A stretch of 64,000 bases of DNA, taken from contig NZ_CP152412.1 in assembly GCF_038957035.1 (NCBI RefSeq), positions 1,043,501-1,107,500 on the forward strand. The letters are read 5' to 3'. Shown in pieces: positions 12,486 to 45,990 of the stretch (positions are counted from its first letter, which is position 1; each line of letters opens with the position of its first letter). A program made the position numbers and the translations under genes. Origin of the DNA: Bradyrhizobium sp. B097. Lineage in GTDB: Bacteria; Pseudomonadota; Alphaproteobacteria; Rhizobiales; Xanthobacteraceae. The notes below the pieces were generated by a model. It saw nothing but the letters and a program-made list of their open reading frames with translations, was not told the origin of the DNA and made no database searches.

Positions 12486-12704
12486 ATGCCGATCCGGGTC
12501 CGGCTCAACGTGATGCTCGCCGAGCGCAACGTGAAATCGAAGGAGCTCGCCGAATATGTCGGAATCACCGAGGCCAATCTGTCCCTGCTCAAGCAGGGCA
12601 AGGTGAAGGGCGTCAGGTTCGATACGCTGGAGCGGATCTGCACCTATCTGAAGTGCCAGCCCGGCGACTTGCTGCGCCATGAGGACGACGATGCGTCAGC
12701 CTGA
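12486..12704 (+). CDS. Small Cro/CI-type HTH regulator (YozG-like)
   Basis: These 72 residues are almost entirely one HTH_XRE domain: MLAERNVKSKELAEYVGI, then ITEANLSLLKQGKVKGVRFD, then LERICTYLKCQPGDLL. It is partner to the DUF2975 gene and probably regulates the pair. The last codons and stop (from 12687) recur at 13206-13233 on the far side of the barstar-like gene, so the 3' end of this gene was duplicated. Confidence 0.85.
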   Translation: MPIRVRLNVMLAERNVKSKELAEYVGITEANLSLLKQGKVKGVRFDTLERICTYLKCQPGDLLRHEDDDASA

Positions 12705-12714
12705 CGCGGCTATC

Positions 12715-12757
12715 GATTCCCGGGCGAGATCGCGACCCGGGTGACGAAGCAAGACCT
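12715..12757 (+). pseudogene. Remnant of the small putative-motility gene
   Basis: The segment reads GEIATRVTKQDL, against GEIATRVTKQNL in the intact gene at 13352-13383, with only a few base differences. About 115 bp of the 5' part is missing here. With the HTH 3' end just before it, it forms the left copy of a duplication that brackets the barstar-like gene. Confidence 0.65.
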
Positions 12758-12849
12758 GCGCGGCGTTCGCGCCCTCAGTGGTAGGATATCATCGATCTAC
12801 ACCGCTGATTTAGGTGCGCTGGGGCGTCAGACTTCGCAAGGAGTGCGGC

Positions 12850-13176
12850 ATGCTCGTTATTGAACTCGATGCCAAGGGCTGGCAGTCATTCCAAGATTTT
12901 AGCAATGCGCTGAAGGCGGCTCTTGGTTCGTGCGATGGCCATGGCAACAGCATAGATGCTTGGATTGATTCAATAATCTACGGTGGCATGAACGAAGTTG
13001 AGGCGCCTTACGTTGTCTGGATCACCGGAACCGCGCGGTGCGACGTAACGCTCAAAGAGGAGCTAGTGACATTCTCTGAGGCGATCAGTGAGGCGCGGGC
13101 ATGGAAGCTGAAGCACCACGGGATCGACGTAGACGTGAGCTTTCGTATTCGAGACGGGTCAAGACCTTCAAATTGA
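12850..13176 (+). CDS. Barstar-family protein (putative RNase inhibitor)
   Basis: The 108-aa protein opens MLVIELDAKGWQSFQDF, then DGHGNSIDAWIDSIIYGGMN, the barstar-family pattern in which the NLDALWD helix contacts the RNase active site. Barstar proteins inhibit barnase-like ribonucleases. No RNase or toxin gene is adjacent, so it is an orphan immunity-type gene. AAGGAG lies 6 nt before the ATG at 12850. Codon use (AAT, TTA, ATA, AGC) is less GC-biased than neighbours, and the gene sits between direct duplications of the HTH 3' end. Recent acquisition is likely. Confidence 0.75.
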   Translation: MLVIELDAKGWQSFQDFSNALKAALGSCDGHGNSIDAWIDSIIYGGMNEVEAPYVVWITGTARCDVTLKEELVTFSEAISEARAWKLKHHGIDVDVSFRIRDGSRPSN

Positions 13177-13205
13177 GACGTCGTCGAGTGGGATCGCGCC
13201 CCGAG

Positions 13206-13233
13206 GACGATGCGTCAGCCTGACGCGGCCATC
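13206..13233 (+). repeat. Second copy of the HTH gene 3' end
   Basis: The 28 bp match 12687-12714 with one mismatch and include the HTH gene's last codons and stop in the same orientation. It is not attached to a reading frame here. The intact putative-motility gene follows. Confidence 0.75.
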
Positions 13234-13291
13234 CGTTACCCAAGCATTAACTTTCGCGCGCTACGCAACAGCAAGTTTAGGAGTGCCGCGT

Positions 13292-13480
13292 ATGGACATG
13301 ATGAGCATGGTGTCGAGCATCTTGTCGATGCAGCAGGGCAATTTGCAGGGTGAGATCGCGACCCGCGTGACCAAGCAGAACCTCGATGCGGAAAAGTTCG
13401 CGGTTCAGACCCTGCTCGGCACGCCGTCGACCGCCAATCTCGGTCCGGGCGTCGGCGGCAACCTCAACGCCGTCGCCTGA
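13292..13480 (+). CDS. Putative motility protein (YjfB-like, PF14070 type)
   Basis: The 62 residues (MDMMSMVSSILSMQQ, then EIATRVTKQNLDAEKFAVQ and LLGTPSTANLGPG) match the short family named putative motility protein, whose function is not established. AGGAG at 13279-13283 lies 8 nt before ATG 13292, favouring that start over an overlapping GTG at 13283. The stop codon abuts the tlpA stop on the other strand, together forming TGATCA. Confidence 0.75.
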   Translation: MDMMSMVSSILSMQQGNLQGEIATRVTKQNLDAEKFAVQTLLGTPSTANLGPGVGGNLNAVA

Positions 13481-14173
13481 TCAGAACCCCGCCGCGGCCG
13501 GGGCTAGCGCCGCCTTCACCAGCTTGATCGCATCGTCGCTCGCCCATTCGGCGGGACCGGCGATATTGGCAATTTCGCAGCCCTTGCCGTCGACCAGCAC
13601 CGAGGTCGGCATGCCGAGTGCCTTGCCGATGTTCTTAAGGTCCTGAAAGACCTTGGCTTTCTGGTCGCTGAAATAGCCGAGATTGTTCAGATTGGCTTCC
13701 TTGAGGAAGTTCTTCGGCTTGTCCGGATCGCGGGTGTCGATGTTGATCGCGACCACCTCGAAATCCTTGCCGCCGAGCTTGGTCTGCAGGCTGTCGAGCG
13801 CCGGCATTTCCTTGCGGCAGGGCACGCACCAGGTCGCCCACAAATTGACCAGCACGGTCTTGCCGCGCCAATCCGACAGTTTCTTCGGCTGGCCGTTGGC
13901 GTCCTCGAAAGTCAGGTCGGGAAGCCTGAGCGGCGTGGTCGCCATGGTCAGCGCCGCGACCTCGCCATGGGCGAGCGGGGCGATCTTCTTCGCCAGATCC
14001 ACCGCGCTGTTGCAGGCGACGTCGCCGCCGGCGGGATGCCGGAGGCCGGAGACCCCGACATAGCCGATCACGGCCCCGGCCAGCACGGCGCCGATCACCA
14101 GCGGGATGCGCCATTTGGCCGTCGGCTTGGCGGTCGGTTCGGATGGGGTCGTCTCGGGCATATCGTTTGTCAT
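13481..14173 (-). CDS. tlpA: Membrane-anchored thioredoxin-like protein TlpA
   Basis: The 230-aa protein has an N-terminal membrane anchor (about residues 23-45) and a periplasmic thioredoxin fold with active site WCVPC in [17 protein letters not shown]. The cis-Pro segment is [11 protein letters not shown]. japonicum TlpA reduces Cu-site proteins needed for cytochrome aa3 assembly. Divergence from argH matches that organism. Extra Cys (VACNSA and KGCEIA) outside the active site are as expected for TlpA, where they form a second disulfide. The codon after MTNDM allows a slightly shorter start. Confidence 0.93.
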
Positions 14174-14289
14174 CCTGGGTCAGATATGGCTATGCAGTGC
14201 CGGGAATACGTCCGGAACCGCCATGCTGTTTCGCCACTACGGCTAAAGAAACAGCACGGCCTGAAATACAAATTCGTGAGCGAGATGTC

Positions 14290-15687
14290 ATGAGCAACAA
14301 GATGTGGGGCGGCCGGTTCTCGGAGCGTCCCGACGCCATCATGGAGGAAATCAACGTCTCCATCGACGTCGACCGTCACCTTTACGCCCAGGACATTGCC
14401 GCGTCCAAGGCCCACGCCGCGATGCTCGCTGCGCAGGGCATCATCACCTCAGCTGATGCGAAAAATATCGGCAAAGGTCTAGACACGATTTTGTCAGAAA
14501 TCGGCAAGGGCGATTTCGACTTCAAGCGCGCGCTCGAGGACATCCATATGAATGTCGAGTCGCGGCTGTCCGAACTGATCGGGCCCGCGGCGGGCCGGCT
14601 GCACACCGCGCGCTCGCGCAACGACCAGGTCGCGACCGATTTCCGGCTCTATGTCCGCGACACCATCGACGAGACAAATGCCGCGCTGGCCGCGTTCCAG
14701 CAGGCGCTGGTTACCCGCGCGCTGGAGCATGCCGGAACCGTGATGCCGGGCTTCACCCATCTGCAGACCGCGCAGCCCGTGACGTTCGGTCATCACTTGC
14801 TGGCCTATGTCGAGATGGCCGGCCGCGACCGCGGCCGCTTTGCCGATGCGCGCAAGCGGCTGAACGAATCGCCGCTGGGCGCCGCCGCGCTCGCCGGCAC
14901 CTCGTTTCCGATCGACCGCACTGCGACCGCCAGGGCGCTCGGCTTCGACCGGCCGATGGCCAATTCGCTCGACGCGGTGTCCGATCGCGATTTCGTGCTG
15001 GAAACGCTGTCGGCGGCCGCGATCTGCGCGGTGCATATGTCCCGCTTCGCCGAGGAGATCGTGATCTGGACCTCGCCCTTGGTCGGTCTCGTCAGGCTCA
15101 GCGACAAGTTCACCACGGGCTCGTCGATCATGCCGCAGAAGCGCAACCCGGACGCGGCCGAGCTCGTGCGCGCCAAGACCGGCCGCGTGATCGGTGCGCT
15201 CACCGCGCTCCTGATCGTGATGAAGGGCCTGCCGCTCGCCTATCAAAAGGACATGCAGGAGGACAAGCAGGGCGCCATGGAGGCGTTCGAGGCGCTGTCG
15301 CTCGCAATCCGCGCCATGACCGGCATGGTCGAGGATCTGGTGCCGGACGAAGCCAAGATGAAGGCCGCGGCCGGCGAGGGCTATGCCACCGCGACTGACC
15401 TGGCCGACTGGCTGGTGCGCACCCTGAAAATGCCGTTCCGCGACGCCCACCACGTGACCGGGCGCATCGTCGGCCTGGCCTCGGCACAGGGCGTGGCGCT
15501 GCACGAACTGCCGCTCAAGGCCATGCAGGAGGTCGAGCCGAAGATTACGGCAGAGGCACTGAAGGTGCTGAGCGTCGAATCCTCGGTCAAGAGCCGCACC
15601 TCGTTCGGTGGTACCGCGCCGAAGAATGTGATGGCGCAGGCCAAAGCCTGGGCCAAGCGGCTGGAAAAAGAGCGAAAATTGGGCTGA
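14290..15687 (+). CDS. argH: Argininosuccinate lyase
   Basis: The last step of arginine synthesis: argininosuccinate is split to arginine and fumarate in the cytoplasm. The 465 residues open [12 protein letters not shown]. They contain [31 protein letters not shown] (catalytic His region) and the mobile loop [13 protein letters not shown] of the fumarase/aspartase superfamily. The start at 14290 gives the family length; an upstream in-frame ATG (14143) would run into tlpA. It is first in argH-lptM-lysA. Confidence 0.97.
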
Positions 15688-15779
15688 TCCGGAAAATTTG
15701 GTCGTGATTTCTCAGGCCTCCGCCTCTCGCCAGAGCATGCCAATGTTTGTATGGTGCCGTCCGAATTGGGGAATTCGTC

Positions 15780-16049
15780 GTGATTAGCAAGAACCGCCTG
15801 ACCCCCTCGGGATGGGCCATCATTGTGCTGAGCGCTGCAACGCTTGCGCTCGGCGGCTGCGGCCGCAAGGGACCGCTCGACCTGCCGCCGACCGCGAACG
15901 CCGCGCCGGCCGCAGCACCGGGCGACACCGAGCGCGAGCGCGCGGAACAGCCCAGCGTGTTCAATCCGACCTATGGCTCGGATGCCGCGCCGGCGGCGTC
16001 GAAAGGCAATAAACGGTCGTTCGTGCTCGATCCGCTGCTCGGTAACTAG
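15780..16049 (+). CDS. lptM: Small lipoprotein, LptM/YifL family
   Basis: The signal has lipobox LGGC (Cys 27), giving mature CGRKGPLDLPP, the hallmark of LptM (YifL), which assists maturation of the LptDE LPS translocon. The remainder is Pro/Ala-rich and disordered. The GTG at 15780 gives the best signal length; an ATG at 15747 adds 11 residues. It sits between argH and lysA, the standard place in alphaproteobacteria. The stop-to-lysA gap is 16 bp. Confidence 0.85.
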   Translation: MISKNRLTPSGWAIIVLSAATLALGGCGRKGPLDLPPTANAAPAAAPGDTERERAEQPSVFNPTYGSDAAPAASKGNKRSFVLDPLLGN

Positions 16050-16065
16050 TATTTAAAAGCCTGTC

Positions 16066-17331
16066 ATGAACCATTTCGACTATCGCAACGGCGTGCTGCA
16101 TGCCGAGGCGGTCAATCTCATTGAGCTGGCGGAGGCCGTCGGCACGCCGTTCTATTGCTATTCGACCGCGACGCTGGAGCGCCACTACCGCGTCTTCACC
16201 GAGGCCTTTGCCGGCGAGAAGGCGCTCGTCTGCTACGCGATGAAGGCCAACTCCAACCAGTCGGTGCTGCGCACGCTGGCCAAGCTCGGCGCCGGCGCCG
16301 ACGTGGTGTCGGGCGGTGAGTTGAAGCGGGCGCTGGCGGCCGGCATCCCGCCGTCGAAGATCCTGTTCTCCGGCGTCGGCAAGACCGAAAGCGAGCTGCG
16401 TGCCGCGCTCGCCGCCGACATTCTCTGCATCAATATCGAGTCCGAGCCCGAGCTCGAGATGCTGTCGCGCCTGGCGGTCGAGATGAAGACGACCGCGCGC
16501 ATCTCGGTGCGGGTCAATCCCGACGTCGATGCCGGCACCCACGCCAAGATCTCGACCGGCAAGTCGGAGAACAAGTTCGGCATTCCGATCGCGCGCGCCC
16601 GCGAGGTCTATGCCCGCGCGGCGAAGCTGCCGGGCATCAAGGTTACCGGCACCGATGTCCATATCGGCAGCCAGATCACGGATCTCGGTCCGCTGGAGGC
16701 GGCGTTCCGGCTGCTCGCCGAATTCGTGCAGACGCTGCGCGCCGACGGCCACAACATCTCGCATGTCGATTTCGGCGGCGGCCTCGGCATTCCCTATTAC
16801 ATGGATCGCGCCGCGCCGCCGGCACCGGCCGCCTACGCCGCGATGGTCAAGCGCGTCACCCATAATCTCGGCTGCACGCTGATGTTCGAGCCGGGCCGCC
16901 TGATCGTCGGCAATGCCGGCATCCTCGTCACCCGCGTGATCCATGTGAAGCCGGGCGATGCCAAGAACTTCGTGATCATCGACGCCGCGATGAACGACCT
17001 GATCCGGCCGACGCTATATGAGGCGCATCACGATATCCTGCCGGTGCGCCGGCCTGCGGAGGGCACGCCGACCATGGTCGCCGACGTGGTCGGCCCGGTC
17101 TGCGAGACCGGCGACTATCTCGCGCTCGACCGTTCGCTGCCGCAGCCGAAGGCCGGCGATCTGCTGGCCGTCATGACCGCCGGCGCCTATGGCGCGGTGC
17201 AGGCCGGCACCTACAACACGCGGCCACTGGTGCCGGAAGTGCTGGTCAAGGACGACCAGTACGCCGTGGTCCGCCCGCGCATCGACGTCGACGCGCTGAT
17301 CGCGATGGACAAGCCCGCGCCGTGGCTGTGA
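16066..17331 (+). CDS. lysA: Diaminopimelate decarboxylase
   Basis: This PLP enzyme (alanine-racemase fold) converts meso-diaminopimelate to lysine. The 421-aa protein has the PLP Lys in VCYAMKANSN, the GVGKTESEL loop, HIGSQITDLGPL, the phosphate-binding FGGGLGIPY and EPGRLIVGNAG, and the C-terminal catalytic CETGDYLA. Its last codons (MDKPAPWL, stop) and about 8 bp beyond are duplicated at 19391-19430, past the tannase gene. Confidence 0.97.
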   Translation: MNHFDYRNGVLHAEAVNLIELAEAVGTPFYCYSTATLERHYRVFTEAFAGEKALVCYAMKANSNQSVLRTLAKLGAGADVVSGGELKRALAAGIPPSKILFSGVGKTESELRAALAADILCINIESEPELEMLSRLAVEMKTTARISVRVNPDVDAGTHAKISTGKSENKFGIPIARAREVYARAAKLPGIKVTGTDVHIGSQITDLGPLEAAFRLLAEFVQTLRADGHNISHVDFGGGLGIPYYMDRAAPPAPAAYAAMVKRVTHNLGCTLMFEPGRLIVGNAGILVTRVIHVKPGDAKNFVIIDAAMNDLIRPTLYEAHHDILPVRRPAEGTPTMVADVVGPVCETGDYLALDRSLPQPKAGDLLAVMTAGAYGAVQAGTYNTRPLVPEVLVKDDQYAVVRPRIDVDALIAMDKPAPWL

Positions 17332-17356
17332 GGCACCGATAGCCCCTCATGCTCGT

Positions 17357-17487
17357 GTCGTCCCTGCGAAAGCAGGGACCCATAACCACCGCTTGTTGTG
17401 TTTGCAGTTAGCTGGGGCCCCAGCCCCTCAAACCACAAACGCCTGTGGTTATGGTTCCCGGGTCGCGCTTCGCTTGCCCGGGACGAC
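17357..17487. repeat. Family A palindromic element, copy 1
   Basis: The 131-bp element begins GTCGTCCCTGCGAAAGCAGG and ends with its rough inverse TTGCCCGGGACGAC. Inside are CCCATAACCAC and GTGGTTATGG arms. Five copies lie in the window (17357, 19449, 20539, 42297, 44900), all intergenic. Only the ends and these inner arms are well kept. Confidence 0.85.
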
Positions 17488-17513
17488 AGCATTTATTTGT
17501 CGACAGGAGATAT

Positions 17514-17546
17514 CAAAAACGCCGGCAAGCCCGGAAGCTTGCCGGC
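17514..17546 (-). terminator. Intrinsic terminator after the tannase-family gene
   Basis: A perfect 10-bp stem GCCGGCAAGC/GCTTGCCGGC (17521-17530 and 17537-17546) with a 6-nt loop is followed, reading on the minus strand, by a short T run (17515-17519). It lies 10 bp after the stop codon. Confidence 0.75.
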
Positions 17547-17556
17547 ATCGCGTGCC

Positions 17557-19290
17557 TCACGGCCCGTATTTCGGGGCCGGCGTCTGGTTGAACTCGTGGT
17601 CGTGTGCGACACAGGTGAAATTCGCTGCAATGCTGCTGCTGCCGCTGCCGTTGTACTGTGCGACTTTCGGGAAGACGCAGAGCGGCCGCGTGAACTGGAC
17701 CGCGGGCGGCGTATCGGCAACGAACTTTGTGGCGAGGATGGTTTCCGGCGCCGTGCCGTTCTCGACCCAGTTGACCAGCGGAGTGAGCGCGTCGAACGTG
17801 TTGGGACCGGGCCCTCCGGAACAGTGGTACATCCCAGGCACCATGAACAGCCGCGCGTAGCTCTGGGTCCGCCGCAGCGCCGGGTTGCCACCCGGGAAGA
17901 AGCCGGCGGGCTGGAAGCCGTGGCCTTCGTTGCCGACCAGGGCATTGAAGTAGTTGATGCTGCTCTGCGACGGGATCAGCGGGTCGGCCCAGCCGTGATA
18001 CATGATGAGCTTGCCGCCATGCTCGCGGAACTCGCCGAGATCGGTGCTGGTTGCGTTCAGCACCTCGGCGAGCTGATCGTCGACCTTGTCGACCGCGCGG
18101 TGAAAGTCGAAATTCGCAAAATTGACCTTGCTTGACGGGTAGCCGAAGCTCGGGCCGAACACCCAGTAGAACAGGCCGTCGAAGGCCGGTTCGGGAAGTT
18201 GCTCCTGGAACGCAAGGCCGAGTGCGAGCACGTCGTCGGTCTCGTTGCCGCGCTCGGAGCCCGGATTGATGATCTGCCCGTTCACCGGGTCGATCGTGCC
18301 CGCGTAGTATTTCTGCATGGTCGTGACCTGATCGGCCGTCAGGCATGCCGGCGGCTGCTTGCCGCCGGTGCACAGCAACGACTTCGGATCGAAACCACAA
18401 TCGCGCGGATCGGTCAGGAACTGGTCGGTGCCGGCGCCGCCGTCGTGGCCGACGCACTGCTTGAGCACCGTCTGGTTGATCAGCGTCATCTGGCCTGGCT
18501 GGATGAACCGGCCGGGGCTCGCATGCGCGTTCTGCCAGCCCGCAAGCCCCGCCATATGCAGGTGGGTGCGGTTGAACGCCGCCGCGCCCGCCAGGATGCC
18601 GTCATAGTCGTCGGGGAAGCGCTGCGCCTCCATCAAGGCATTCTGGCCGCCGGTGGAGCAGCCGGCGAAGTAGGCCGTCTTCGCGCGCTGCCCATAGAAC
18701 GCGTTGGCGATCTCCTTGCCGCGCACGGTCATCAGGTGAATGGCCCGGAAGCCGAAATCCTTGATCCGCTCGGGATGTCCGAACAGGCCGGTCGACGGAG
18801 CGGCCGGATCGCCGAACTCGGTCGCGAGCGGATTGCCCATGTTGCCGTTCGAGCCGCAGAACAGCGGATTGCATCCCGAGGATCCGGTGCCGAGGTCGCT
18901 GTTGGTCGCGGCAAAGCCGGCCTTGATGCCGCTCGCAAGCTCGCTGTAGGTGATGTCGCCCTGGAATCCGCCGCCGCCGGTGCCCAGGAACCTGCCGTTC
19001 CACGTGCCCTCGGGCAGCCAGACCTCGATCTTGATACTGGAATCCGAACTCGGCGTAAGGGTTGCGGTCACCCGGCAGAACGGGGGAAGACCGGTGATCG
19101 TGGTCGGCGGGTTGCCGGGAACGACGAACGTTCCGGTGCCATTGTCGGTCGCCGAATTGATGACGGTGTGCTGCAGTTGCAAGGATTGCAGATTGCTGCA
19201 CGGCGTCGCCATGGCTGGCGAGGCCGCGATCACGATGCCGGCAAACAGGGCCATGCTCGCGCCGACACGATAGGGTCGATGACGCCTCAT
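17557..19290 (-). CDS. Tannase/feruloyl esterase family exported hydrolase
   Basis: This 577-aa alpha/beta hydrolase has a Sec signal peptide (AGIVIAASPAMA, about residues 14-28). The nucleophile motif is GCSTGGQ, with the acid in HGWADPLIP and the His in PGMYHCSGGPG. Paired Cys around the Ser/His are typical of tannases. Members cleave esters of plant phenolic acids such as gallate or ferulate, in the periplasm or outside. The chosen ATG gives the complete signal peptide. It lies between duplicated lysA-3'/family A segments, so it is probably an acquired module; the nearby carboxymuconolactone decarboxylase would fit aromatic use. Confidence 0.88.
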   Translation of the reverse strand: MRRHRPYRVGASMALFAGIVIAASPAMATPCSNLQSLQLQHTVINSATDNGTGTFVVPGNPPTTITGLPPFCRVTATLTPSSDSSIKIEVWLPEGTWNGRFLGTGGGGFQGDITYSELASGIKAGFAATNSDLGTGSSGCNPLFCGSNGNMGNPLATEFGDPAAPSTGLFGHPERIKDFGFRAIHLMTVRGKEIANAFYGQRAKTAYFAGCSTGGQNALMEAQRFPDDYDGILAGAAAFNRTHLHMAGLAGWQNAHASPGRFIQPGQMTLINQTVLKQCVGHDGGAGTDQFLTDPRDCGFDPKSLLCTGGKQPPACLTADQVTTMQKYYAGTIDPVNGQIINPGSERGNETDDVLALGLAFQEQLPEPAFDGLFYWVFGPSFGYPSSKVNFANFDFHRAVDKVDDQLAEVLNATSTDLGEFREHGGKLIMYHGWADPLIPSQSSINYFNALVGNEGHGFQPAGFFPGGNPALRRTQSYARLFMVPGMYHCSGGPGPNTFDALTPLVNWVENGTAPETILATKFVADTPPAVQFTRPLCVFPKVAQYNGSGSSSIAANFTCVAHDHEFNQTPAPKYGP

Positions 19291-19390
19291 TCTATCCTCC
19301 CCGATTTTTGCAGTTTTGTAGGGAAGACAGGATAGCTGGCCGAGATGACAACTTGAGGATGACGGGGAGCGATGGCGTTCGCGCTCCTTG

Positions 19391-19430
19391 TCGCAATGCA
19401 CAAGCCCGCGCCGTGGTTGTGAGGCACTGA
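19391..19430 (+). pseudogene. Remnant of the lysA 3' end
   Basis: These 40 bp match 17300-17339 with four mismatches, covering the last codons of lysA (KPAPWL and stop) and the next few bases. As after real lysA, a 16-18 bp spacer and then a family A element follow. No frame continues upstream of it. Confidence 0.8.
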
Positions 19431-19448
19431 GCGTGCCGCACCAACGGT

Positions 19449-19569
19449 GTCGTCCTGGCGAAGGCCAGGACCCATAGCCACCACTAATGCTTGTCTTGCC
19501 GCGCTGGGGCTCCAGCTTCGCTAGCCGCGAACGCCGGTGGTAATGGGTCCTGGCTTTCGCCAGGACGAC
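19449..19569. repeat. Family A palindromic element, copy 2
   Basis: Ends GTCGTCCTGGCGAAGGCCAG and CTTTCGCCAGGACGAC are inverted, with inner GACCCATAGCCACC and GGTGGTAATGGGTC. It is preceded by the lysA remnant and ends 6 bp before the dehydrogenase stop codon. Confidence 0.85.
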
Positions 19570-19574
19570 GCGGC

Positions 19575-20486
19575 TTATTTGGCGGCGTGACTGCCTTTTC
19601 CACCGCCGCCGACGATCACGCCCGCGGCCTTTTCGATCGGCTTGATCGCCGCGGTGAAATCCGACTCCGGTCCCTCGTCGCGGATGATGACTTCCCAGAG
19701 CCGGCCGACCGCTTCGGCGACTTCCATCGACAGCCCGAGCGAGCGCATCTCCTCGACCGCGAGCCGCACGTCCTTCACCATCAGGCCGGTGGCGAAGCCG
19801 AAGTCGAAGCTGCGCGGCAGCACCGAACGCGGAAACTTGTCGCGACTCGCGGTGTTCAGCCCCGAGCCCGCGTTGATGACGTCGATCATCACGGCCGGAT
19901 CGAGCCCGGACTTCACGCCCATCACCACCGCTTCCGAGGTCGCAACCATCGCGGTCGCCGACAGGAAGTTGTTGGCGAGCTTCATGGTCTGACCGGAGCC
20001 CGGCTTGGTGCCGATGAAGAACACCTTGCCGATGACGTCGAGCGCGGATTTTACCAGCTCGAAATCGGCGCGCGGGCCCGACACCATCACGGCCAGCGTG
20101 CCCTTCTCGGCGCCGGAGACGCCGCCGGAGACCGGGCTGTCGATCTGCACGATGTTCTTCTTCGCCAGCAGATCGTGGATCTTCACCGCCATCTGCGAGC
20201 CGACGGTGGAGAGATCGATGAAGCGCTTGACGCGCTTGCCCTCGATCACGCCGCCAGCGCCGGTCGCAACCTCGAGCGAGGCCTGCAGCGAGGGCAGGCT
20301 CGCCATCACGGTCTCGACGCGGTCGGCGATATCCTTGGGCGACGTCGCAGCCGCGGCGCCGAGCGCAACCAGCTGATCGACGGCGTCCTTGCGCATGTCG
20401 AACACGGTGAGCTTGTGGCCGGCCTCGATCAGCCGGCGCGCCATCGGGAAGCCCATCTTCCCGAGGCCGATGAATCCGATTTCCAT
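19575..20486 (-). CDS. NAD(P)-dependent 3-hydroxyisobutyrate-dehydrogenase-family oxidoreductase
   Basis: The 303-aa beta-hydroxyacid dehydrogenase has MEIGFIGLGKMGFPMARRL (Rossmann GLGKMG at residues 7-12). The substrate loop is DSPVSGGVSGAEKGTL, the catalytic Lys motif GSGQTMKLANNFL, and DVRLAVEEM lies in the helical domain. Possible substrates are 3-hydroxyisobutyrate, tartronate semialdehyde or similar; the motifs do not decide. It lies between family A copies 2 and 3. Confidence 0.88.
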   Translation of the reverse strand: MEIGFIGLGKMGFPMARRLIEAGHKLTVFDMRKDAVDQLVALGAAAATSPKDIADRVETVMASLPSLQASLEVATGAGGVIEGKRVKRFIDLSTVGSQMAVKIHDLLAKKNIVQIDSPVSGGVSGAEKGTLAVMVSGPRADFELVKSALDVIGKVFFIGTKPGSGQTMKLANNFLSATAMVATSEAVVMGVKSGLDPAVMIDVINAGSGLNTASRDKFPRSVLPRSFDFGFATGLMVKDVRLAVEEMRSLGLSMEVAEAVGRLWEVIIRDEGPESDFTAAIKPIEKAAGVIVGGGGKGSHAAK

Positions 20487-20538
20487 TTCTCGTTTCCTCT
20501 ACGTCGTTATGTGCCGAGCCGCGCGCCCCACATTCGAT

Positions 20539-20669: not shown

Positions 20670-20685
20670 AACGAGTGGAGTTCGC

Positions 20686-37181: not shown

Positions 37182-37233
37182 GCGGCTTGCTGCCGCTTCG
37201 ATTTTGACAAATTCGCCCGCCAAAGGACGCCGC

Positions 37234-38421: not shown

Positions 38422-38532
38422 GCAGCGCATAGCTCGAAGCTCGGTAGGGCGGGTTAGGCGAAGCCGTAACCCGCCATTGTTCACCGCCAGCTGTGCGGCG
38501 GATGACGCTACGCTAAACCACCCCACGCGCCG

Positions 38533-38850: not shown

Positions 38851-39166
38851 CTTGCTGTCCTTCGTCCATCGCATGTCCATGGCAGCCTGAAACGGGTGCC
38901 GAACGACAATTCGATCTTGTGACCGGTGTTGTTACGCGTGCGCCGCCGCTCACCGCCGGCTGAGAGGCGAATTGTGCTGCGCAAAATCCACCCTCCGCAC
39001 TGCGCGGACTCCTTAATCCCTCGCGCGCGATATCGTCCGTCGCGGCAAAACATTCCCGCGGCCGCGATGAGAAAAACGTGACCGGAATATTGCGGGCCGC
39101 CGCGAATATCAGTCCCCGAATACCGCTCTCTCTCGCCTGAGGAAACAACCTCGTGTGGAGGAAGCG

Positions 39167-40735
39167 ATGCGAATTCTCGGGGGGATTCTGCTCGGCAGCG
39201 TGCTGTTGTCGGCAGGTCCAGCGTTGGCGGACGACGATGCGTCGGAGCTGAAGGCGTTGAAGGCACGCCTCAAGCAGCTCGAACAGAAAATGGAAGTGCA
39301 GGCGCGCAAGGAGGAGGCGCTGGCGGCAAGACAGAGCGCAATGCAGAACACGCACATGGCGGCCAAGGCGCCGGTGCCGTTCGATCCCTGCGCATCGGGC
39401 AAGCTCTGCTACAAGGGCGTCACCTTCACCTTCGGCGGCTGGGTCGATCTCACCGGCATCTACCGGACCCGCAATCTCGCCTCCGACACCGGCTCGGTCT
39501 ACGCCTTCATTCCGTTCCCGCAGAGCAAGAACTTCAACACCGGCGAGTCGCGCTTCTCGGCGCGGCAGACCCGATTCTCGGTGCTTGCGGAAGCCGAAGT
39601 CTTCGCCAACACCCGCGTCGCCGGCTACGGCGAAATGGATTTCGAAGGCGCGGCGCAGACCGCGAACTCGGTCGCTACCAACTCGTTCAACCCGCGGCTG
39701 CGTCAGGCCAGCGTCGAGGTCAGCCGCACCGATCTCGGCCTGCATGTGCTTGCCGGTCAGAGCTGGTCGCTGAATGCGCCGAGCAAGTCCGGCATCGATC
39801 CGCGCGGGGTCGATGCGCCCGGCGTGATCGATTTCGAATCGGTGCCCGGCTTCCTTGCGGCGCGGCAGCCCGGCATTCGCGTCTGGCAGGACATCGGGCC
39901 CGAATTCAAGCTCGCGGTGTCGGCGGAAAATCCGCAGACCTCGTTCTTCGGCGGCAACACGCCGCTGGTCGGCACGCCCGCGGCCGGCCCGCAAGGCGTG
40001 CTCAACCCGAACCTCCTGGTCAACCTCACCGGGCCGGGCGGCAGCTTCTTCAACAACGCCAACAATGTCAGCCTCAATCACGTGCCCGATTTCACCGTGA
40101 AGGGCGCGTGGGATCCGCGGCTTGGGCCCTACAAGCTGCATGTCGAGGGCTGGGCGATGTATCGCGACTTCTACGATCGCTTCAACTTCGCCAATCACGA
40201 CGTCAACACGGTGAGCTTCGGCGGGCACTTCTCGGCGGAGATCGTGCCGCAGCTGCTGGAGCTGCAGGGCTCGGCGTCTCACGGCGCGCTCGGCCGCTTC
40301 ACGGCGACGCCGTTCCCGGACGCGACGGTGCGCCAGGACGGCTCGATCCAGCCGCTGCCGATCACGGCGTTCCTGCTCGGCACGGTCTGGCACACGACGC
40401 CGTCGCTCGATCTCTATGCCTATGCCGGCCTCGAGAAGACCAAGGCGACGTTCTCCAACGTCGGCACGGTGCCGTTCGGTTACGGCAACCCGCTCTACAA
40501 CAATCTCGGCTGCAACGTCGAGAACTCGCCGGCGGCGACCTGCAACGGCAACACCTCGGAGGTCAGGCAATACACGGTCGGTTTCTACGACACGATCTTC
40601 AAGGGCGACTACGGGGCGATCAAGGCCGGCGTGCAGTATTCCTATAACCAGCGCTTCGCCTTCCAAGGTGTCGGCGGCGCGCCGAAGACCGACGACCACA
40701 TCGTCATGACCCAGGTCCGCTACTACCCGTTCTAG
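39167..40735 (+). CDS. Outer-membrane porin-like protein
   Basis: The 522-aa protein has a signal peptide (MRILGGILLGSVLLSAGPALA), then a short coiled coil (SELKALKARLKQLEQKMEVQ) as in trimeric porins. A beta-barrel domain starts at VTFTFGGWVDLTGIY and ends with RYYPF, the terminal Phe recognised by the BAM machinery. It resembles alphaproteobacterial porins with an N-terminal coil; substrate unknown. GGAGGAAG precedes ATG 39167 closely; a GTG at 39155 would lie before the signal peptide. Confidence 0.87.
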   Translation: MRILGGILLGSVLLSAGPALADDDASELKALKARLKQLEQKMEVQARKEEALAARQSAMQNTHMAAKAPVPFDPCASGKLCYKGVTFTFGGWVDLTGIYRTRNLASDTGSVYAFIPFPQSKNFNTGESRFSARQTRFSVLAEAEVFANTRVAGYGEMDFEGAAQTANSVATNSFNPRLRQASVEVSRTDLGLHVLAGQSWSLNAPSKSGIDPRGVDAPGVIDFESVPGFLAARQPGIRVWQDIGPEFKLAVSAENPQTSFFGGNTPLVGTPAAGPQGVLNPNLLVNLTGPGGSFFNNANNVSLNHVPDFTVKGAWDPRLGPYKLHVEGWAMYRDFYDRFNFANHDVNTVSFGGHFSAEIVPQLLELQGSASHGALGRFTATPFPDATVRQDGSIQPLPITAFLLGTVWHTTPSLDLYAYAGLEKTKATFSNVGTVPFGYGNPLYNNLGCNVENSPAATCNGNTSEVRQYTVGFYDTIFKGDYGAIKAGVQYSYNQRFAFQGVGGAPKTDDHIVMTQVRYYPF

Positions 40736-40747
40736 GACTCCGGTTAC

Positions 40748-40942
40748 CTCGCCCCGCGTGCGGGGAGAGGCGTAGGCCGCCTTCGGCGGCCGTCCATGAG
40801 AACGCCGAAGCAGAGCTCCGGCTACGACGCATCGAAGATGCGATCTGGGTGAGGGGAGTCTCCGCGAGTTCGTTAGCCTAGCCAGCATTATTGCGGAGAC
40901 GGCCCCTCACCCCAACCCTCTCCCCGTCAGAACGGGGAGAGG
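40748..40942. repeat. Composite palindromic element (CCTCTCCCCG type)
   Basis: A left hairpin CCTCGCCCCGCG/CGGGGAGAGG (40748-40771) and a right hairpin CCTCTCCCCGT/ACGGGGAGAGG (40917-40942) enclose an inverted pair GAGGGGAGTCTCCGC/GCGGAGACGGCCCCTC. It fills the gap after the porin gene and leads into the next start. Confidence 0.75.
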
Positions 40943-40964
40943 GAGCGTAGAGCTGGAAAGGAAC

Positions 40965-41480
40965 ATGCAGATGAGGATCGTGAGCAGCAAGGAGAGGGCC
41001 GTGATCGCCCGCGAACTGATGATGGTCAGCCGCGCCGCGCATGTGTTGCAGCGAACCGGTCTGGCGATGGCCGGCGCCATGGGCGGCACCTTCGTCGCCG
41101 CCCAGCTCGCGAAGGGGCACATCGCTTTCTTCGGTACGCTTGCCTTCATCGTGACGACGATCGTGATCGGTGCCGTCGGCTTCTATCTCGGCATCGATAT
41201 TCCAAGGCCCGCCTTGCGCGCCACGGGGCGCATCGATGCCGTCGAGCTGATGAGCGCCGGCGGCATCTTCCTCGCCGCGCTGGCTGCGCTGGTGTCGGTC
41301 TACGGCATCGTATTCGACGAGATTCCGCCGCGCGCCTGGGAGTTCGTGATCGGCTCATGGTGGTTCGGCGGCGACGTCATGCTGGCAACCGCCGGCCTCG
41401 TCGGCCGCCAGCGGCTGACCCAGAAGGTTGCGCCGATATCGGCGGCGGGGCCGATCCGGGATCAACGGTTGCGACGGTGA
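40965..41480 (+). CDS. Conserved-looking membrane protein of unknown function
   Basis: The 171-aa protein has about four hydrophobic helices (residues 30-48, 53-77, 92-113, 122-143) and a basic tail (RQRLTQ, RDQRLRR). No family is recognised. An AGGA lies 3 nt before ATG 40965 and 9 nt before a second in-frame ATG at 40971, which may be the real start. Confidence 0.65.
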   Translation: MQMRIVSSKERAVIARELMMVSRAAHVLQRTGLAMAGAMGGTFVAAQLAKGHIAFFGTLAFIVTTIVIGAVGFYLGIDIPRPALRATGRIDAVELMSAGGIFLAALAALVSVYGIVFDEIPPRAWEFVIGSWWFGGDVMLATAGLVGRQRLTQKVAPISAAGPIRDQRLRR

Positions 41481-41520
41481 GCCACGCGGGTAACTGCACT
41501 GCTGGATGTTGGCCCAGTCG

Positions 41521-41723
41521 CTATTTCGGGATGACCTGTGCATGATGAAGGATCATCAGCGGGCGGTCACCGTCCTTTTCAAAAAGATTGGTGACGAAGT
41601 CCTTGATGTTGAGAGGGTCGCCGCCAGCCTTCAAGTGCAGTGTCGCCTTCTCCAGACCTCAGACCCAGGCGAATTTCCCGTCCGTTTGGATCTCCGTCAC
41701 CGAAGTTATTTGAGCCTCAAGCT
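41521..41723 (-). pseudogene. 5'-truncated remnant of an NTF2/SnoaL-like protein
   Basis: Read on the minus strand the frame ending at 41521 gives KLEAQITSVTEIQTDGKFA, then WV, an in-frame TGA at 41659-41661, then GLEKATLHLKAGGDPL, NIKDFVTNLFEKDGDRPL and MILHHAQVIPK. The last strand pair resembles the C terminus of NTF2-like (SnoaL/DUF4440) proteins. The N-terminal half is missing, and the stop looks like a Trp-to-stop change. It follows the DUF1330 gene directly. Family assignment is tentative. Confidence 0.45.
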
Positions 41724-41726
41724 TGG

Positions 41727-42107
41727 CTACTTTTCGGTTTCGACGACGTACCGCCGTATGACCTTGGTTGCCTTGTCCCGCTGGGGTGCAAGGTCCGACC
41801 AGGCCTTCGACTTGTAGAATGCTACCGCGTCATCCATGCTGTCCCATTCGACGATCGCCGCACTCTTGGGAGGCGGTCCCCCCTCGATTTGAACAACCCG
41901 TCCGGCTGCGGTGCGCAAGGCTCGACCATGGGCTGCCTCTATCGCCTTCCGGGCGGCCGGGAGGTAAGCGGCCTGGGCTGAAGGGTCGAGGACTTCAATT
42001 TCGCTGACAGTGTAAGCTTTCAGCTTGGCTCCTTGAGCGTGGAGGCCGTGGACTGCGATGGCTCCGATGGTGACACCTGCGAGCAATGTCATTGCAAAAG
42101 CTTTCAT
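41727..42107 (-). CDS. DUF1330 domain protein with signal peptide
   Basis: The 126-aa protein has an N-terminal signal (MKAFAMTLLAGVTIGAIAV) and a DUF1330 domain: AYTVSEIEVLDPSAQAAYLP, IEGGPPPKSAAIVEWDSM and AVAFYKSKAWSDLAPQRDK. DUF1330 proteins are small ferredoxin-like folds of unknown function; most are cytoplasmic, so the signal peptide is notable but occurs in related genomes. ATG 42107 gives the full signal. Confidence 0.82.
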   Translation of the reverse strand: MKAFAMTLLAGVTIGAIAVHGLHAQGAKLKAYTVSEIEVLDPSAQAAYLPAARKAIEAAHGRALRTAAGRVVQIEGGPPPKSAAIVEWDSMDDAVAFYKSKAWSDLAPQRDKATKVIRRYVVETEK

Positions 42108-42296
42108 GACTGACTCTCCGGTTGCCTTGCCGATCATCCGGCGGTCAATCGTACTGCTATTTGAGACCATGCGGTGGGCAATCTAGGATTAGCCCTGGCA
42201 CCCAACGTCTAGGGGAACGCCACATAATAGCGGCGCCGAAGTCGCGGGTGATGACATCGCGTTGTTTGACATCTTGAATCGAGAACCATCCTCAGC

Positions 42297-42417
42297 GTCG
42301 TCCTGGCGAAGGCCAGGACCCATTACCCCAAATCGCAATTGTTACGCGACGCTGGGGCCGCGATCCCGTTCATCACTCAATGCGGTGGTTATGGGTCCTG
42401 GCTTTCGCCAGGACGAC
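42297..42417. repeat. Family A palindromic element, copy 4
   Basis: Inverted ends GTCGTCCTGGCGAAGGCCAG and GCTTTCGCCAGGACGAC, inner GACCCATTACCCC and GTGGTTATGGGTCC. It belongs to the left copy of a duplication of about 315 bp whose right copy is at 44853-45171. Confidence 0.85.
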
Positions 42418-42444
42418 GAAGTGGAGAATACCGCGCGCCTGATC

Positions 42445-42564
42445 CTACTTCTTCAAATTCGAATGCGGACGGCCGAAGTCGGGTCCGGCGGAATCCCGGC
42501 CGATCTCGACGATGCCGCGGCGGATGGCGCGGGTGAAGTGGTCGAACAGCGCTTCGCCGTCGCC
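42445..42564 (-). pseudogene. Remnant of the tyrC 3' end
   Basis: The 120 bp match the last 126 bp of the tyrC coding region (45046-45171). I count eight substitutions and one 6-bp length difference. Translated, it ends [19 protein letters not shown] and PDFGRPHSNLKK, against [20 protein letters not shown] and [10 protein letters not shown] in the intact protein. There is no start and no frame upstream. A family A element adjoins as at the intact gene. Confidence 0.88.
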
Positions 42565-42610
42565 CAGCGCAGAAGGTCCGGAGACTCGCATTAGAGTGAT
42601 CGAAAATGCT

Positions 42611-43300
42611 CTAGCTACCCCAGCCGAAGCGGTAGTTGAAGCCCACCTTGACGGCATGCTCGTCGTCCCTGAAGCGGACGCCGACGATCGTGGCGGGGCC
42701 GCCGGCGAAGGTGGTGTTGCCGAAGTTGTAATACTGATACTCGGCCTTCGCGGACCAATTCCGCGCGAACATGTATTCGAGACCGCCGCCGAGGGTGAAG
42801 CCGCTCCGGTGACTGCCATTGGTCGCAACGACCACCGGAATTCCGCCGGAGCCAGCGCCGATATTGAGGTTGTCGCGGACGGCGTAACCGCCCTTGGCGT
42901 AGAGAAGCGCGGGGCCCCAGGCGTAGCCGAGCCGGCCGGTGATCGAGCCAAGCTGATTGCTTGTTACCAGGGTGCCTGCCGGAAGAGCCGAGCCTTTGCC
43001 ACCGTTGCCGGTGAGCCCACTAAACTGAACCTCGGTACCGATTACCCAGTTCGATGCGAACTGGTAGTCGAAGCCACCCTGCAAGCCGCCCAGGAATCGG
43101 GCCTTGTCCCCGCCGAGGCTGTTGTTGCCCGCGAAGTCACCACCGATGTGGCCGCCGATGTAGAAGCCGGTCCAGTTATAGACCGCCTCCGGCGCCGTAT
43201 AGGCCGGCGCCTTCGGATAGGTGCGCGCCGGAAGATCGGCCGCGAACGCGGGAGCCGCGCAGGCGATACCAGCGACCGCACCGAGCAGAAGCTTTTTCAT
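42611..43300 (-). CDS. Small outer-membrane beta-barrel protein (Omp25/RopB-like)
   Basis: The 229-aa porin-family protein has a signal peptide (LLLGAVAGIACAAPAFAADL), the YNWTGFYIGGHIGG start of the eight-stranded barrel, GRLGYAWGPALLYAKGGYAV in the middle, and a final VKVGFNYRFGW. Such proteins are abundant rhizobial surface proteins that stabilise the envelope. It is divergent from the MerR-type gene across a dyad, which may control it. Both lie between duplicated tyrC-3' segments. Confidence 0.87.
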   Translation of the reverse strand: MKKLLLGAVAGIACAAPAFAADLPARTYPKAPAYTAPEAVYNWTGFYIGGHIGGDFAGNNSLGGDKARFLGGLQGGFDYQFASNWVIGTEVQFSGLTGNGGKGSALPAGTLVTSNQLGSITGRLGYAWGPALLYAKGGYAVRDNLNIGAGSGGIPVVVATNGSHRSGFTLGGGLEYMFARNWSAKAEYQYYNFGNTTFAGGPATIVGVRFRDDEHAVKVGFNYRFGWGS

Positions 43301-43428
43301 GAGATTGGTGTCCCGTTGTTGTGGTTGTGTGGCCAGGTCCGGAGGACCGTCGTCGATGCGCGTGTATGTTGTGGCGACTTGCGTGTTGAAGGGTCTTCCT
43401 GCCCCGCTTCTGACCTATAACCTTGGGG

Positions 43429-43478
43429 CCGGCTCAAGCGGTTTATCGCCTGCCGCGCCGAAAAAGGCCTTGAGCCGG
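43429..43478. promoter_or_regulatory. Long-spaced dyad between OMP and MerR-type genes
   Basis: CCGGCTCAAG (43429-43438) and its exact complement CTTGAGCCGG (43469-43478) flank 30 nt. ACCTAAGGT, itself palindromic, follows at 43480. The site lies in the 222-bp divergent gap and is a candidate operator for the MerR-type protein. Confidence 0.5.
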
Positions 43479-43522
43479 ACCTAAGGTCACACCGTAAGGT
43501 ACGGACGAAAGGGCCTCCGTCG

Positions 43523-44620
43523 ATGAACCAGCCGAGAGACAAAGCCGGCAAGGACGTGTTGCTGACCGCGGCAGAGTGCGCCGCTCGCATCGGTCTCACG
43601 GTACGCGGACTTCGGCTCTATGAGAGCCGCGGCCTGATTTCGCCGCGCCGCACGGCGAAGAGTTGGCGGCTTTATGGGGCTGCGGAGATCAGCCGGCTGC
43701 ACGAGATCCTCGCGCTAAAGCGAATGGGGCTCAGCCTCGCGCAAATCGCCAAGCTTCTCGAAGGCGGCGCGATCGATCTCGACCGAATCCTGGCCATGCA
43801 ACAATCGTCGATCCTTCAACTGCGCAACCGCGCCGATGAGGGCCTTGCGCTGGTGAATGTGGCGCGTTTGAAGCTTTCCGCCGGCGGATCGCTCTCGATC
43901 GCCGACCTCATTGCGCTGGCCAAAGAAACCAACATGGCCGAAGCATCCTTCGATGCCGTCGCGCAACGGCGCTACGAACAGGCCCGGCCCCGCGCTGCGA
44001 TTCAAATCGATCCCGGCGTGATGGAGCGCTACGTCGGTCATTTTCGGTTTCAGGCCGGCGGGCAGGTGGTGACGATCACGCGGGATGGCGGTCATCTGTT
44101 CGCGAAGCCGCTCGGACAGTTCGCCTCGGAAATATATCCCGAAAGCGAGCACACGTTTTTTCTCAAGACCACGGCGGCGCAGATTACCTTCGCCGTCGAG
44201 CCGGATGGAATCTCGAACGCCCTGACGCTTCATCAGGGCGGGTTGACGCACGACGCGACCCGGATCGACGACCAGCAGGCCCAAGATGCGGCGACCGCGC
44301 TGGCAAAGAAGATCGACAACAAGACGCCGTCGCCGGGAACCGAGGAGGCGATCCGCCGCCTGATCATCCAGCACCAGCAAGGTGCCGTCGACTACGCCGG
44401 CATGAGCGACATCATGGCGGCGGTGGCCCGCGAGCAGGCTCCGGCGATCATCGCCGCGCTGGATCTGGCCGGGCGCATGCAAACGATTCGCTTCAAGGGC
44501 GTCGGGCGAGACGGTTGGGATGTCTATGACGTCAACTTCGCCAATGTCGACATGGAATGGCGGATCATTTTGGCATCCGACGGAAAGATCGATGGCGTGT
44601 TGCTTCGGTCGCTACCTTGA
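43523..44620 (+). CDS. MerR-family regulator fused to a DUF3471-like domain
   Basis: Residues about 12-80 of this 365-aa protein are a MerR HTH (TAAECAARIGLTVRGLRLYE, GLISPRRTAKSWRLYG), followed by a helical dimerisation part. About 160-250 reads like DUF3471, the domain usually found behind serine beta-lactamase-type hydrolases: MERYVGHFRFQAGGQ, ITRDGGHLFAKPLGQ, YPESEHTFFLKTTAAQITF. A last domain (WDVYDVNFANVDMEWRIIL, DGKIDGVLL) resembles small NTF2/DUF3887-like modules. These C-terminal parts probably sense a ligand. It is divergent from the OMP gene. Confidence 0.82.
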   Translation: MNQPRDKAGKDVLLTAAECAARIGLTVRGLRLYESRGLISPRRTAKSWRLYGAAEISRLHEILALKRMGLSLAQIAKLLEGGAIDLDRILAMQQSSILQLRNRADEGLALVNVARLKLSAGGSLSIADLIALAKETNMAEASFDAVAQRRYEQARPRAAIQIDPGVMERYVGHFRFQAGGQVVTITRDGGHLFAKPLGQFASEIYPESEHTFFLKTTAAQITFAVEPDGISNALTLHQGGLTHDATRIDDQQAQDAATALAKKIDNKTPSPGTEEAIRRLIIQHQQGAVDYAGMSDIMAAVAREQAPAIIAALDLAGRMQTIRFKGVGRDGWDVYDVNFANVDMEWRIILASDGKIDGVLLRSLP

Positions 44621-44755
44621 CCAGACGCGGTGAAAGCGGCGCTGCCGATCGGCACCCGGCTTTCCCTGCGCCTCTGATCAAGTGAGGGCGGAACGAAGAG
44701 CAAAGCTCGGGCAAATCACGTCGCGAGAATGCGAAGCCGCGTCCCCACCCACACT

Positions 44756-44858
44756 GTCATCGCGCGGCTCGACCGGGCGATCCAGTACGCCGCGGCCTCT
44801 CGGCTCAAGCGCGGACGTCTCTGGAATACTGGATCGCCCGGTCAAGCCGGGCGATGAC
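44756..44858. repeat. Family B palindromic element, copy 2
   Basis: It begins GTCATCGCGCGGCTCGACCG and ends CAAGCCGGGCGATGAC; inner GGGCGATCCAGTA and TACTGGATCGCCC pair perfectly. Its right end is part of the duplicated segment (copy at 42250). Confidence 0.85.
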
Positions 44859-44899
44859 GCCGCGTGGTGTGACAACTTGAATCGCGATCCATCCTCATC

Positions 44900-45021
44900 G
44901 TCGTCCCGGCGCAGGCCGGGACCCATAACCACAAATGCCGATTGTTATGGATCACTGGAACGGCGAGTCCCTCCAACCACATCTGCCGCGGAGTATGGGT
45001 CCCGGCCTGCGCCGGGACGAC
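44900..45021. repeat. Family A palindromic element, copy 5
   Basis: Inverted ends GTCGTCCCGGCGCAGGCCGG and CCGGCCTGCGCCGGGACGAC form a perfect 20-bp pair. It lies 24 bp after the tyrC stop and is the right-hand counterpart of copy 4. Confidence 0.88.
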
Positions 45022-45045
45022 GGAGAGTATGCGGACCGAGCCCGA

Positions 45046-45990
45046 CTACTTCTTCAAATTCGCATGCGGCCGGCCGAAATCGGGCGCGGCGGAATCCTGG
45101 CCGATCTCGACGATGCCACGGCGGATGGCGCGGGTGCGGGTGAAGTGGTCGAACAGCGCGTCGCCGTCGCCGCGCCGGATCGCGCGGGTCAGCTTCGACA
45201 GGTCCTCGGTGAAGGTGCCGAGCATCTCGAGCACAGCGTCCTTGTTGGCGAGGAACACGTCGCGCCACATCGTCGGGTCCGACGCTGCGATGCGGGTGAA
45301 GTCGCGGAAACCGCCGGCGGAGAACTTGATGACCTCGGATTCCGTCACCTGCGCCAGCTCGTCGGCAGTGCCGACGATGGTGTAGGCGATCAGATGCGGC
45401 AGATGGCTGGTGATCGCGAGCACGAGGTCATGATGATCCGGCGTCATGACCTCGACCTTGGCGCCGAGCGCGGCCCAGAACGCGCGCAGCCGGTCGGTCG
45501 CCGCGGGATCGGTGCCTTCGGGCGGCGTCAGGATGCACCAGCGGTTGATGAAGAGTTCGGCGAAGCCGGAATCCGGGCCCGAGTGTTCCGTGCCGGCCAC
45601 CGGATGCGCCGGCACGAAGTGCACGCCGTCAGGCAGATGCGGCGCCATGTCCTTGACGACGGCGCCCTTCACCGAGCCGACGTCGGAGATGATGGCGCCG
45701 GGCTTGAGATGGCCGGCGATCTCGGCCGCGACCGGGCCGCAGGCGCCGACCGGGATGCAAAGGATGACGAGATCGGCATCCTTCACCGCCTCGATATTGG
45801 TCTCGACGACGCGATCGGCGATGCCGAGCTCGGCGACGCGGGCGCGCGTCTTCTCCGAGCGCGCGGTGGTCACGATCTCGCCTACCAGGCCTTGCGCGCG
45901 CGCGCCGCGCGCGATCGAGCCGCCGATCAGGCCGAAGCCGATCAGCGCGATGCGGTTGAAGAGCGGAGCCGTGGTCACGTCGGTGTTCAC
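45046..45990 (-). CDS. tyrC: Prephenate/arogenate dehydrogenase
   Basis: The 314-aa TyrA-type enzyme makes 4-hydroxyphenylpyruvate or tyrosine with NAD(P). The Rossmann motif is [15 protein letters not shown], then [23 protein letters not shown], the active-site [19 protein letters not shown] and [22 protein letters not shown] at 45990 overlaps the hisC stop (GTGA), giving coupled translation. Cyclohexadienyl specificity is common in alphaproteobacteria, but not shown here. The C-terminal 42 codons are duplicated at 42445-42564. Confidence 0.92.

Follow-up and report, generated by a model that had tools for sequence, protein, structure and literature searches.

Gene 3'-end duplications around accessory genes in Bradyrhizobium: possible scars of one-sided, integrase-free DNA capture

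Site-specific islands usually show an intact gene, the cargo and a displaced 3' end in direct orientation. Another route, according to the sections of the cited papers on which we draw here and below, is homology-facilitated illegitimate recombination (HFIR), in which one end of the incoming DNA is matched to the recipient, the other is joined without homology and about 1–2 kb is added without a recombinase (PMC3240628). Three of four Escherichia coli HFIR clones lacked microhomology; of 60 clones expected as one-sided integrations, 56 were partial gene duplications and 4 were true HFIR. Fourteen duplications were sequenced, with repeats of 109–950 bp, and the authors ascribed them to a single crossover of a circularised, trimmed molecule (PMC3240628). 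An HFIR-like mechanism was proposed by its authors for immunity-gene arrays of the type VI secretion system of Vibrio cholerae (PMC5361080), and homology-assisted illegitimate recombination was proposed for small variable segments, about 10% of which have flanking direct repeats (PMC2884548). Here we describe three accessory insertions in Bradyrhizobium sp. B097, behind lysA, tyrC and a helix-turn-helix (HTH) gene, each bracketed by a direct repeat of the host gene's 3' end. They lie in a stretch of 64,000 nt of the complete 9.25 Mb genome (G000:C1:1043501-1107500, hereafter the window; G numbers denote genomes and L numbers loci of our set). Its closest relatives by tyrC protein are Bradyrhizobium strains, with strain C9 at 98%.

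At lysA (16066-17331, plus strand) the intact gene is followed by a palindromic element (17357-17488, plus), a tannase gene (17557-19290, minus, start approximate and set by eye; Pfam Tannase, 2e-102), a remnant of the lysA 3' end (19391-19430, plus) and a second palindromic element (19449-19570, plus). The remnant is 90% identical to 17300-17339 (plus), which comprises the last 32 nt of lysA and 8 nt downstream of it. The right neighbour, a 3-hydroxyisobutyrate dehydrogenase-family gene (19575-20486, minus), is also present in relatives with an empty site. The same succession is found at tyrC (45046-46248, minus; prephenate dehydrogenase domains). Here the intact gene is followed by an element with leader (44866-45037) and by a cargo block with abrupt ends which is common to G107 and RD5-C2 (42599-44644) and holds an outer-membrane beta-barrel protein (OMP) gene (42611-43300, minus) and a MerR-DUF3471 gene (43523-44620, plus). 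Behind it lie a tyrC remnant of about 120 nt (42445-42566, minus), 89% identical to the intact 3' end over 126 alignment columns with one 6-nt gap, and a second element with leader (42262-42440). Each tyrC 3'-end copy has the palindromic element on its downstream side, and the tyrC 3' end is found at just two places in this genome. An accessory DUF1330 open reading frame (ORF; 41727-42170, minus) is located between the remnant and the next gene.

The third bracket has a different composition. A 31-nt stretch spanning the stop codon of the HTH gene (12486-12704, plus; Pfam HTH_26) is present at 12684-12714 (plus) and again, as the remnant, at 13203-13233 (plus; 94%), with a Barstar-family ORF between the copies (12814-13176, plus; 4e-10). 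There is no palindromic element at this site; behind the first repeat copy lies a 36-nt fragment (12722-12757, plus; 86% to 13348-13383) of the next small gene, which stands intact behind the remnant (13292-13480, plus). The single order that the original prediction gave for all three sites is therefore correct for lysA and tyrC but not for the HTH site. At all three, a direct repeat of the 3' end flanks the insert on both sides, as in Campbell-type integration, and the resident 3' end survives as a second copy; no deletion of resident DNA was seen.

The lysA and tyrC brackets each join two haplotypes, as their flanking copies are different alleles with 68–69% identity. The lysA flanks in the window agree at 129 of 190 positions (68%). 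When both were compared with 12 relatives, the intact-side flank grouped with G107 (177/200; 0.974) and the remnant-side flank with G009 (164/192; 0.991). The copies downstream of tyrC agree at 127 of 185 positions (69%); in a comparison with 21 relative sequences, two of them from one genome, the intact side matched G138 at 158 of 186 positions and paired with G138/G048 (0.912), and the remnant side matched CER78 at 162 of 186 and grouped with CER78, macuxiense, altum, G107 and RD5-C2 (0.985). These groupings bear on a rival explanation that involves no transfer, namely a tandem duplication of 3' end and cargo within one lineage, followed by loss of one cargo copy. Several facts agree with it: the repeats are directly oriented, the copies of a repeat in G069 (described below) are 100% identical over 34 nt, and a short duplication without gene cargo exists elsewhere in the genome (G000 8307634-8307695 / 8307890). 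However, the membership of the lysA and tyrC copies in different allele groups speaks against a recent duplication in place, which we rejected for these two sites; the copies of a further repeat in C9 differ at three sites, with an RD5-C2-like remnant; and a second event would be needed each time to remove a cargo copy. We regard tandem duplication as improbable.

Relatives show these loci in several states. Had they all carried the cargo, the common mechanism assumed in the original prediction would have lost its footing, and empty sites are in fact present. At the HTH site, six relatives (G118, G107, RD5-C2, G138, G048 and G076) run straight from window position 12709-12721, within or just behind the first repeat copy, to 13203-13206, sharing a single copy of 26–38 nt, while G003 is joined without overlap; G009, G069 and G041 were uninformative because their HTH side did not align. 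C9 has the same insertion as the window, and among 265 genus genomes the Barstar block occurs in these two only (G000 and C9). The small-gene fragment, compared over about 30 nt, matches G048 at 97% identity and the corresponding gene of the window at 86%. The site behind tyrC is empty in B. embrapense, where the next gene follows after about 150 bp, and G107 and RD5-C2 carry the OMP–MerR cargo without a remnant. OMP and MerR within one match were found in 3 of 265 genomes among the matches listed in order of score, in all cases beside tyrC. A strong second tyrC 3' end near tyrC was seen only in G000 in a survey of 146 genomes, for which weak matches were listed in part; B. algeriense (L101) has a weak one. 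The sequence at 44646-44733, adjoining the OMP–MerR block, matches sequence behind tyrC in G069 (88.6%) and G108 (84.4%); as both lack the OMP–MerR cargo, the border of the block is abrupt here too. A match to DUF1330 is present in 20 of 265 genomes; in those 10 of them, other than G000, for which the tyrC position was available, it is located away from tyrC.

Behind lysA, the tannase was found in 3 of 26 loci compared (G003, G108 and G002) and was absent in 23, and no lysA remnant was detected in the three tannase-bearing relatives. Two further genomes have a lysA remnant around other cargo: in G145 it brackets alpha/beta hydrolase and LysR genes, and in G097 about 6.5 kb. In the latter (L212:917-8483) the second lysA 3' part of about 440 nt still has an open frame and is located ~6.5 kb from lysA, with SulP-like and other genes (names read by eye) between the copies. 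The lysA remnants of the three genomes measure about 40, 81 and 440 nt.

Comparable scars exist at other genes. A scan of 40 loci of relatives with 508 genes revealed four intergenic 3'-end copies, belonging to a DUF2125 gene in C9, a TctC gene in G069, and lysA and an antidote-like gene in G145; 80 additional tyrC loci yielded three more, at a ChaC gene with a carbonic anhydrase in the gap (L096), at a MetW gene (L059) and, weakly, at tyrC (L101). The scar in C9 (L181:7957-9721) consists of an 87-nt repeat of the DUF2125 3' end (84/87) around the genes of an FRG-domain protein (PADLOC candidate PDC-S15) and a 184-aa protein. Its copies differ at three sites. The remnant is of RD5-C2 type, with 99% identity to RD5-C2 over 85 nt, and continues into RD5-C2-like sequence, which marks it as the resident copy in C9; the intact end differs, and over the last ~480 nt of the intact gene C9's own clade is no longer the best match, a weak signal. 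The antidote-like scar in G145 measures 40 nt (98%) and its cargo includes a Nudix protein. In G069, identical 34-nt copies of the TctC end enclose a gene for a 278-aa protein, which was not found at the other loci compared. This is the one case in which an end joined without homology was found: in an alignment with G076, where no remnant exists, the match of the cargo breaks off 2 nt short of the last 34 nt of TctC. No obvious microhomology is present at this joint, which is the sole one that can be read and is non-homologous.

We tentatively propose, at a probability of roughly 45%, that the brackets are scars of one-sided, integrase-free capture. The incoming DNA would stem from a related strain and contain the host gene with the cargo behind it. 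It would pair with the recipient's chromosome within the host gene, which provides the homologous end. The far end beyond the cargo, which has no match, would be attached by illegitimate joining inside the resident copy of that gene, at a distance of tens to hundreds of nt from the stop codon. The gene would be completed by the donor version, and the severed resident 3' end would stay behind the cargo with its own downstream sequence as the remnant. One-sided joining would yield in a single step a complete gene, the cargo and a resident 3' end that retains its native downstream sequence. At tyrC, lysA and TctC the cargo occupies the same position behind its host gene in relatives that have a remnant and in relatives that do not. 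The homologous step, the direction of transfer, the vehicle and the joint-making enzyme are inferred. Two Ku genes and one ComEC/Rec2 gene are present in the genome, so that end joining and DNA uptake would be possible.

A number of observations weigh against this proposal. The window flanks are clade-like on both sides, which leaves donor and resident side indistinguishable there, and the intact tyrC resembles its clade as far as the stop codon (119/121 to G107), so that no donor tract is visible inside the gene; the donor-tract signal in C9 is weak. Both tyrC allele groups are present inside the clade, and none of the sequences compared showed the predicted resident tyrC haplotype, in which DUF1330 would come after an A-type element. 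Moreover, the OMP–MerR cargo follows an A-type element in G107 and RD5-C2 but a B-type flank in the window, which calls for at least one further event. At lysA, the sequence between the tannase and the next gene in G003 weakly resembles the lysA end and may be a decayed remnant. Both G069 repeat copies have a T not seen in the relatives compared, and donor and resident therefore cannot be told apart in that scar. The allele comparison at the HTH site is based on about 30 nt, and the one joint that is readable does not show the microhomology of 3–10 bp usual for HFIR.

The same product, including the two-allele flanks, would also result if trimmed linear DNA were circularised by end joining and integrated by a single crossover in the 3' end of the host gene (Campbell type). 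The E. coli precedent, with 56 of 60 clones being partial gene duplications (PMC3240628), supports this route, and an intact tyrC that is clade-like to its stop is what a crossover within the repeat would leave. On the other hand, the crossover must fall inside repeats of 31–120 nt; in C9 it would be confined to the first ~42 nt of the 87-nt repeat, ahead of the three sites at which the copies differ, and the intact gene there departs from its clade already well before the repeat begins, although this signal is weak. Few sites in the C9 repeat are informative as to an allele switch inside both copies. C9 thus leans to one-sided joining, whereas tyrC leans, if anything, to the circle. We regard the circle as a close rival, if somewhat unlikely, as the source of the brackets. 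The crossover of circular DNA named in the original prediction accordingly fits the product, but as one of two mechanisms that do so.

A site-specific island at each gene 3' end, with duplication of an attachment (att) site and an integrase that was lost or acts in trans, would be expected to produce much the same arrangement, and the bracket layout does match the usual island layout. However, the host gene is a different one at each site, and the lysA remnants of about 40, 81 and 440 nt in three genomes speak against a fixed att site. No tyrosine recombinase was found in the window, the nearest of 13 genome matches being about 340 kb away, and no recombinase domain was found in the scanned bracket ORFs, cargo included; the genome-wide search was confined to tyrosine recombinases, with serine recombinases and transposases outside its scope. 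The original prediction's statement that no recombinase gene is present stands within this scope. We rejected the fixed att-site island on account of the differing remnant lengths and the lack of a tyrosine integrase in the window, and island integration has next to no probability in our estimate. Of the original prediction, the common layout, the window's lack of a tyrosine recombinase, the relatives with empty sites and a recombination at gene 3' ends that is not site-specific are supported.

The palindromic elements flank the lysA and tyrC brackets and belong to an abundant dispersed family with at least 81 matches in the genome (40 of 341 first-look candidates scored). Recombination between such elements might therefore have brought the cargo and made the brackets. 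Against this, the HTH site, the C9 DUF2125 scar and the G069 TctC scar have brackets without an element, as neither the C9 nor the G069 repeat contains one; the repeats include gene ends that lie outside the element; and the element is present behind lysA and tyrC in relatives without cargo. The brackets without an element led us to reject element-driven recombination, which is very improbable, and the original suggestion that the palindromes help recombination finds no backing in this distribution. In appearance the element is like a miniature inverted-repeat transposable element (MITE) or a repetitive extragenic palindrome (REP), and it does not form the border of the cargo. The brackets do not show the features of a transposon or MITE insertion: the repeats are host-gene-specific 3' ends of 31–120 nt and not element ends with a short target duplication. 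In 20 stretches around element copies the direct repeats were mostly the element itself, in many cases spaced by about 290–305 nt, and gene ends were not clearly duplicated. Element copies, or parts of their surroundings, are found again in the same orientation at intervals of about 287–305 nt in G000 (L279, L280, L282, L289 and L291), a spacing that hints at a larger composite unit.

For evaluation against chance, we counted 3' ends with a direct downstream copy within 8 kb that reaches the stop, and used as control the gene ends dealt to the downstream regions of other genes. At 45 bits or more, 5 of 901 genes had such a copy compared to 1 of 898 in the control, and at 30 bits or more we counted 9 and 5, respectively; one of the observed cases (1493309-1493830) is a paralogous gene pair. 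Three brackets are located within the 64 kb of the window (12687-45171) as against two cases of at least 45 bits in the other 1.2 Mb sampled of the genome, this clustering being the reason why the window was picked. Remnants without cargo scattered over the genome would have undermined the link to cargo made in the original prediction. One clear case of this kind was found, G000 8307634-8307695, with a gap of just 195 nt: at G000:C1:8307634-8307951 a gene 3' end and element are doubled (second copy at 8307890), with no gene cargo between them.

A general scan covered 2528 called genes of at least 300 nt (3.26 Mb; gene starts approximate), and queries with three or more intergenic matches were dropped. 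Direct intergenic copies reaching the gene end were found 11 times for 3' ends downstream, once for 3' ends upstream and once for 5' ends upstream. Four 3' copies were upstream and inverted, and three of these share a pattern of 22 nt with a 1553-nt gap which resembles insertion-sequence ends. When copies did not have to reach the end, the counts were 17 (3' downstream) and 7 (5' upstream), a weaker bias. At 45 bits or more, 3' ends outnumbered 5' ends by 10 to 1 (binomial 0.006), plus one 5' downstream copy; without the two window cases and the G145 lysA case, which had brought their loci into the sample, the ratio was 7 to 1 (0.035). In G000 outside the window it was 2 to 1, and in 0.4 Mb of G107 no case occurred on either side. 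The loci are not independent, since 80 of them are one tyrC neighbourhood in many strains. Selection would be sufficient to explain a 3' bias, given that the complete copy retains promoter and start. Repeats that are long or identical would be eliminated by recombination, and short, diverged ones would remain.

A broader view, which we consider unlikely, is that gene 3' ends are the preferred landing places of a genus-wide integrase-free capture that builds much of the small accessory content behind core genes. If it were true, 3'-end remnants would record, with a date, which strains were donors and which were recipients. The majority of small accessory insertions in bacterial genomes lack a mobility gene, and how they entered is a matter of guesswork. 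A leftover host gene end that belongs to another allele would point directly to integration of the one-sided or circle type, and any set of genomes can be screened for such ends. Should the 3' bias persist when sampling is unbiased, it would need explaining by selection, through the promoter kept by the complete gene, or by mechanism.

The original prediction saw no named system that fits. HFIR is such a named system, and it has been proposed for a similar layout in V. cholerae (PMC5361080). A limited literature search found no publication on gene 3'-end scars around cargo in Bradyrhizobium. The brackets resemble HFIR (PMC3240628) in the addition of about 1–2 kb of foreign DNA, in the non-homologous far joint of the one readable case and in the lack of a recombinase in the ORFs scanned; a homologous end, which we infer here, would be a further likeness. 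Laboratory products of HFIR, in contrast, usually replace resident DNA, with about 1 kb deleted, and mostly show microhomology of 3–10 bp, whereas the window keeps the resident 3' end as a duplication, the readable joint in G069 has no obvious microhomology, and the event is reconstructed from genomes. As neither the deletion of resident DNA nor the microhomology was found, we do not file the brackets as a member of HFIR and describe them as HFIR-like in their working. The circle-derived duplications in E. coli are similar in the partial duplication of a host gene around inserted DNA (PMC3240628); they arose in a plasmid conjugation assay, while here the origin is read from natural genomes, in which the copies have diverged and most repeats are shorter. 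Merodiploids formed in Streptococcus pneumoniae transformation are likewise partial duplications that arise during DNA uptake (PMC3784515). The nearest natural cases, on the sections cited, are the V. cholerae immunity arrays and the small variable segments. In the former, a module enters at a conserved anchor and pushes older pieces, such as an effector 3' end, behind it (PMC5361080), but these are toxin–immunity modules at secretion clusters, whereas the window has unrelated cargo at ordinary core genes (lysA, tyrC and the HTH gene). The latter are likewise short accessory DNA without mobile-element genes, though gene 3'-end scars and two-allele flanks are not described in the part of that text examined (PMC2884548). 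Taken together, our best reading is that the brackets represent a route of gene gain that is known but rarely documented, and not a new mobile element.

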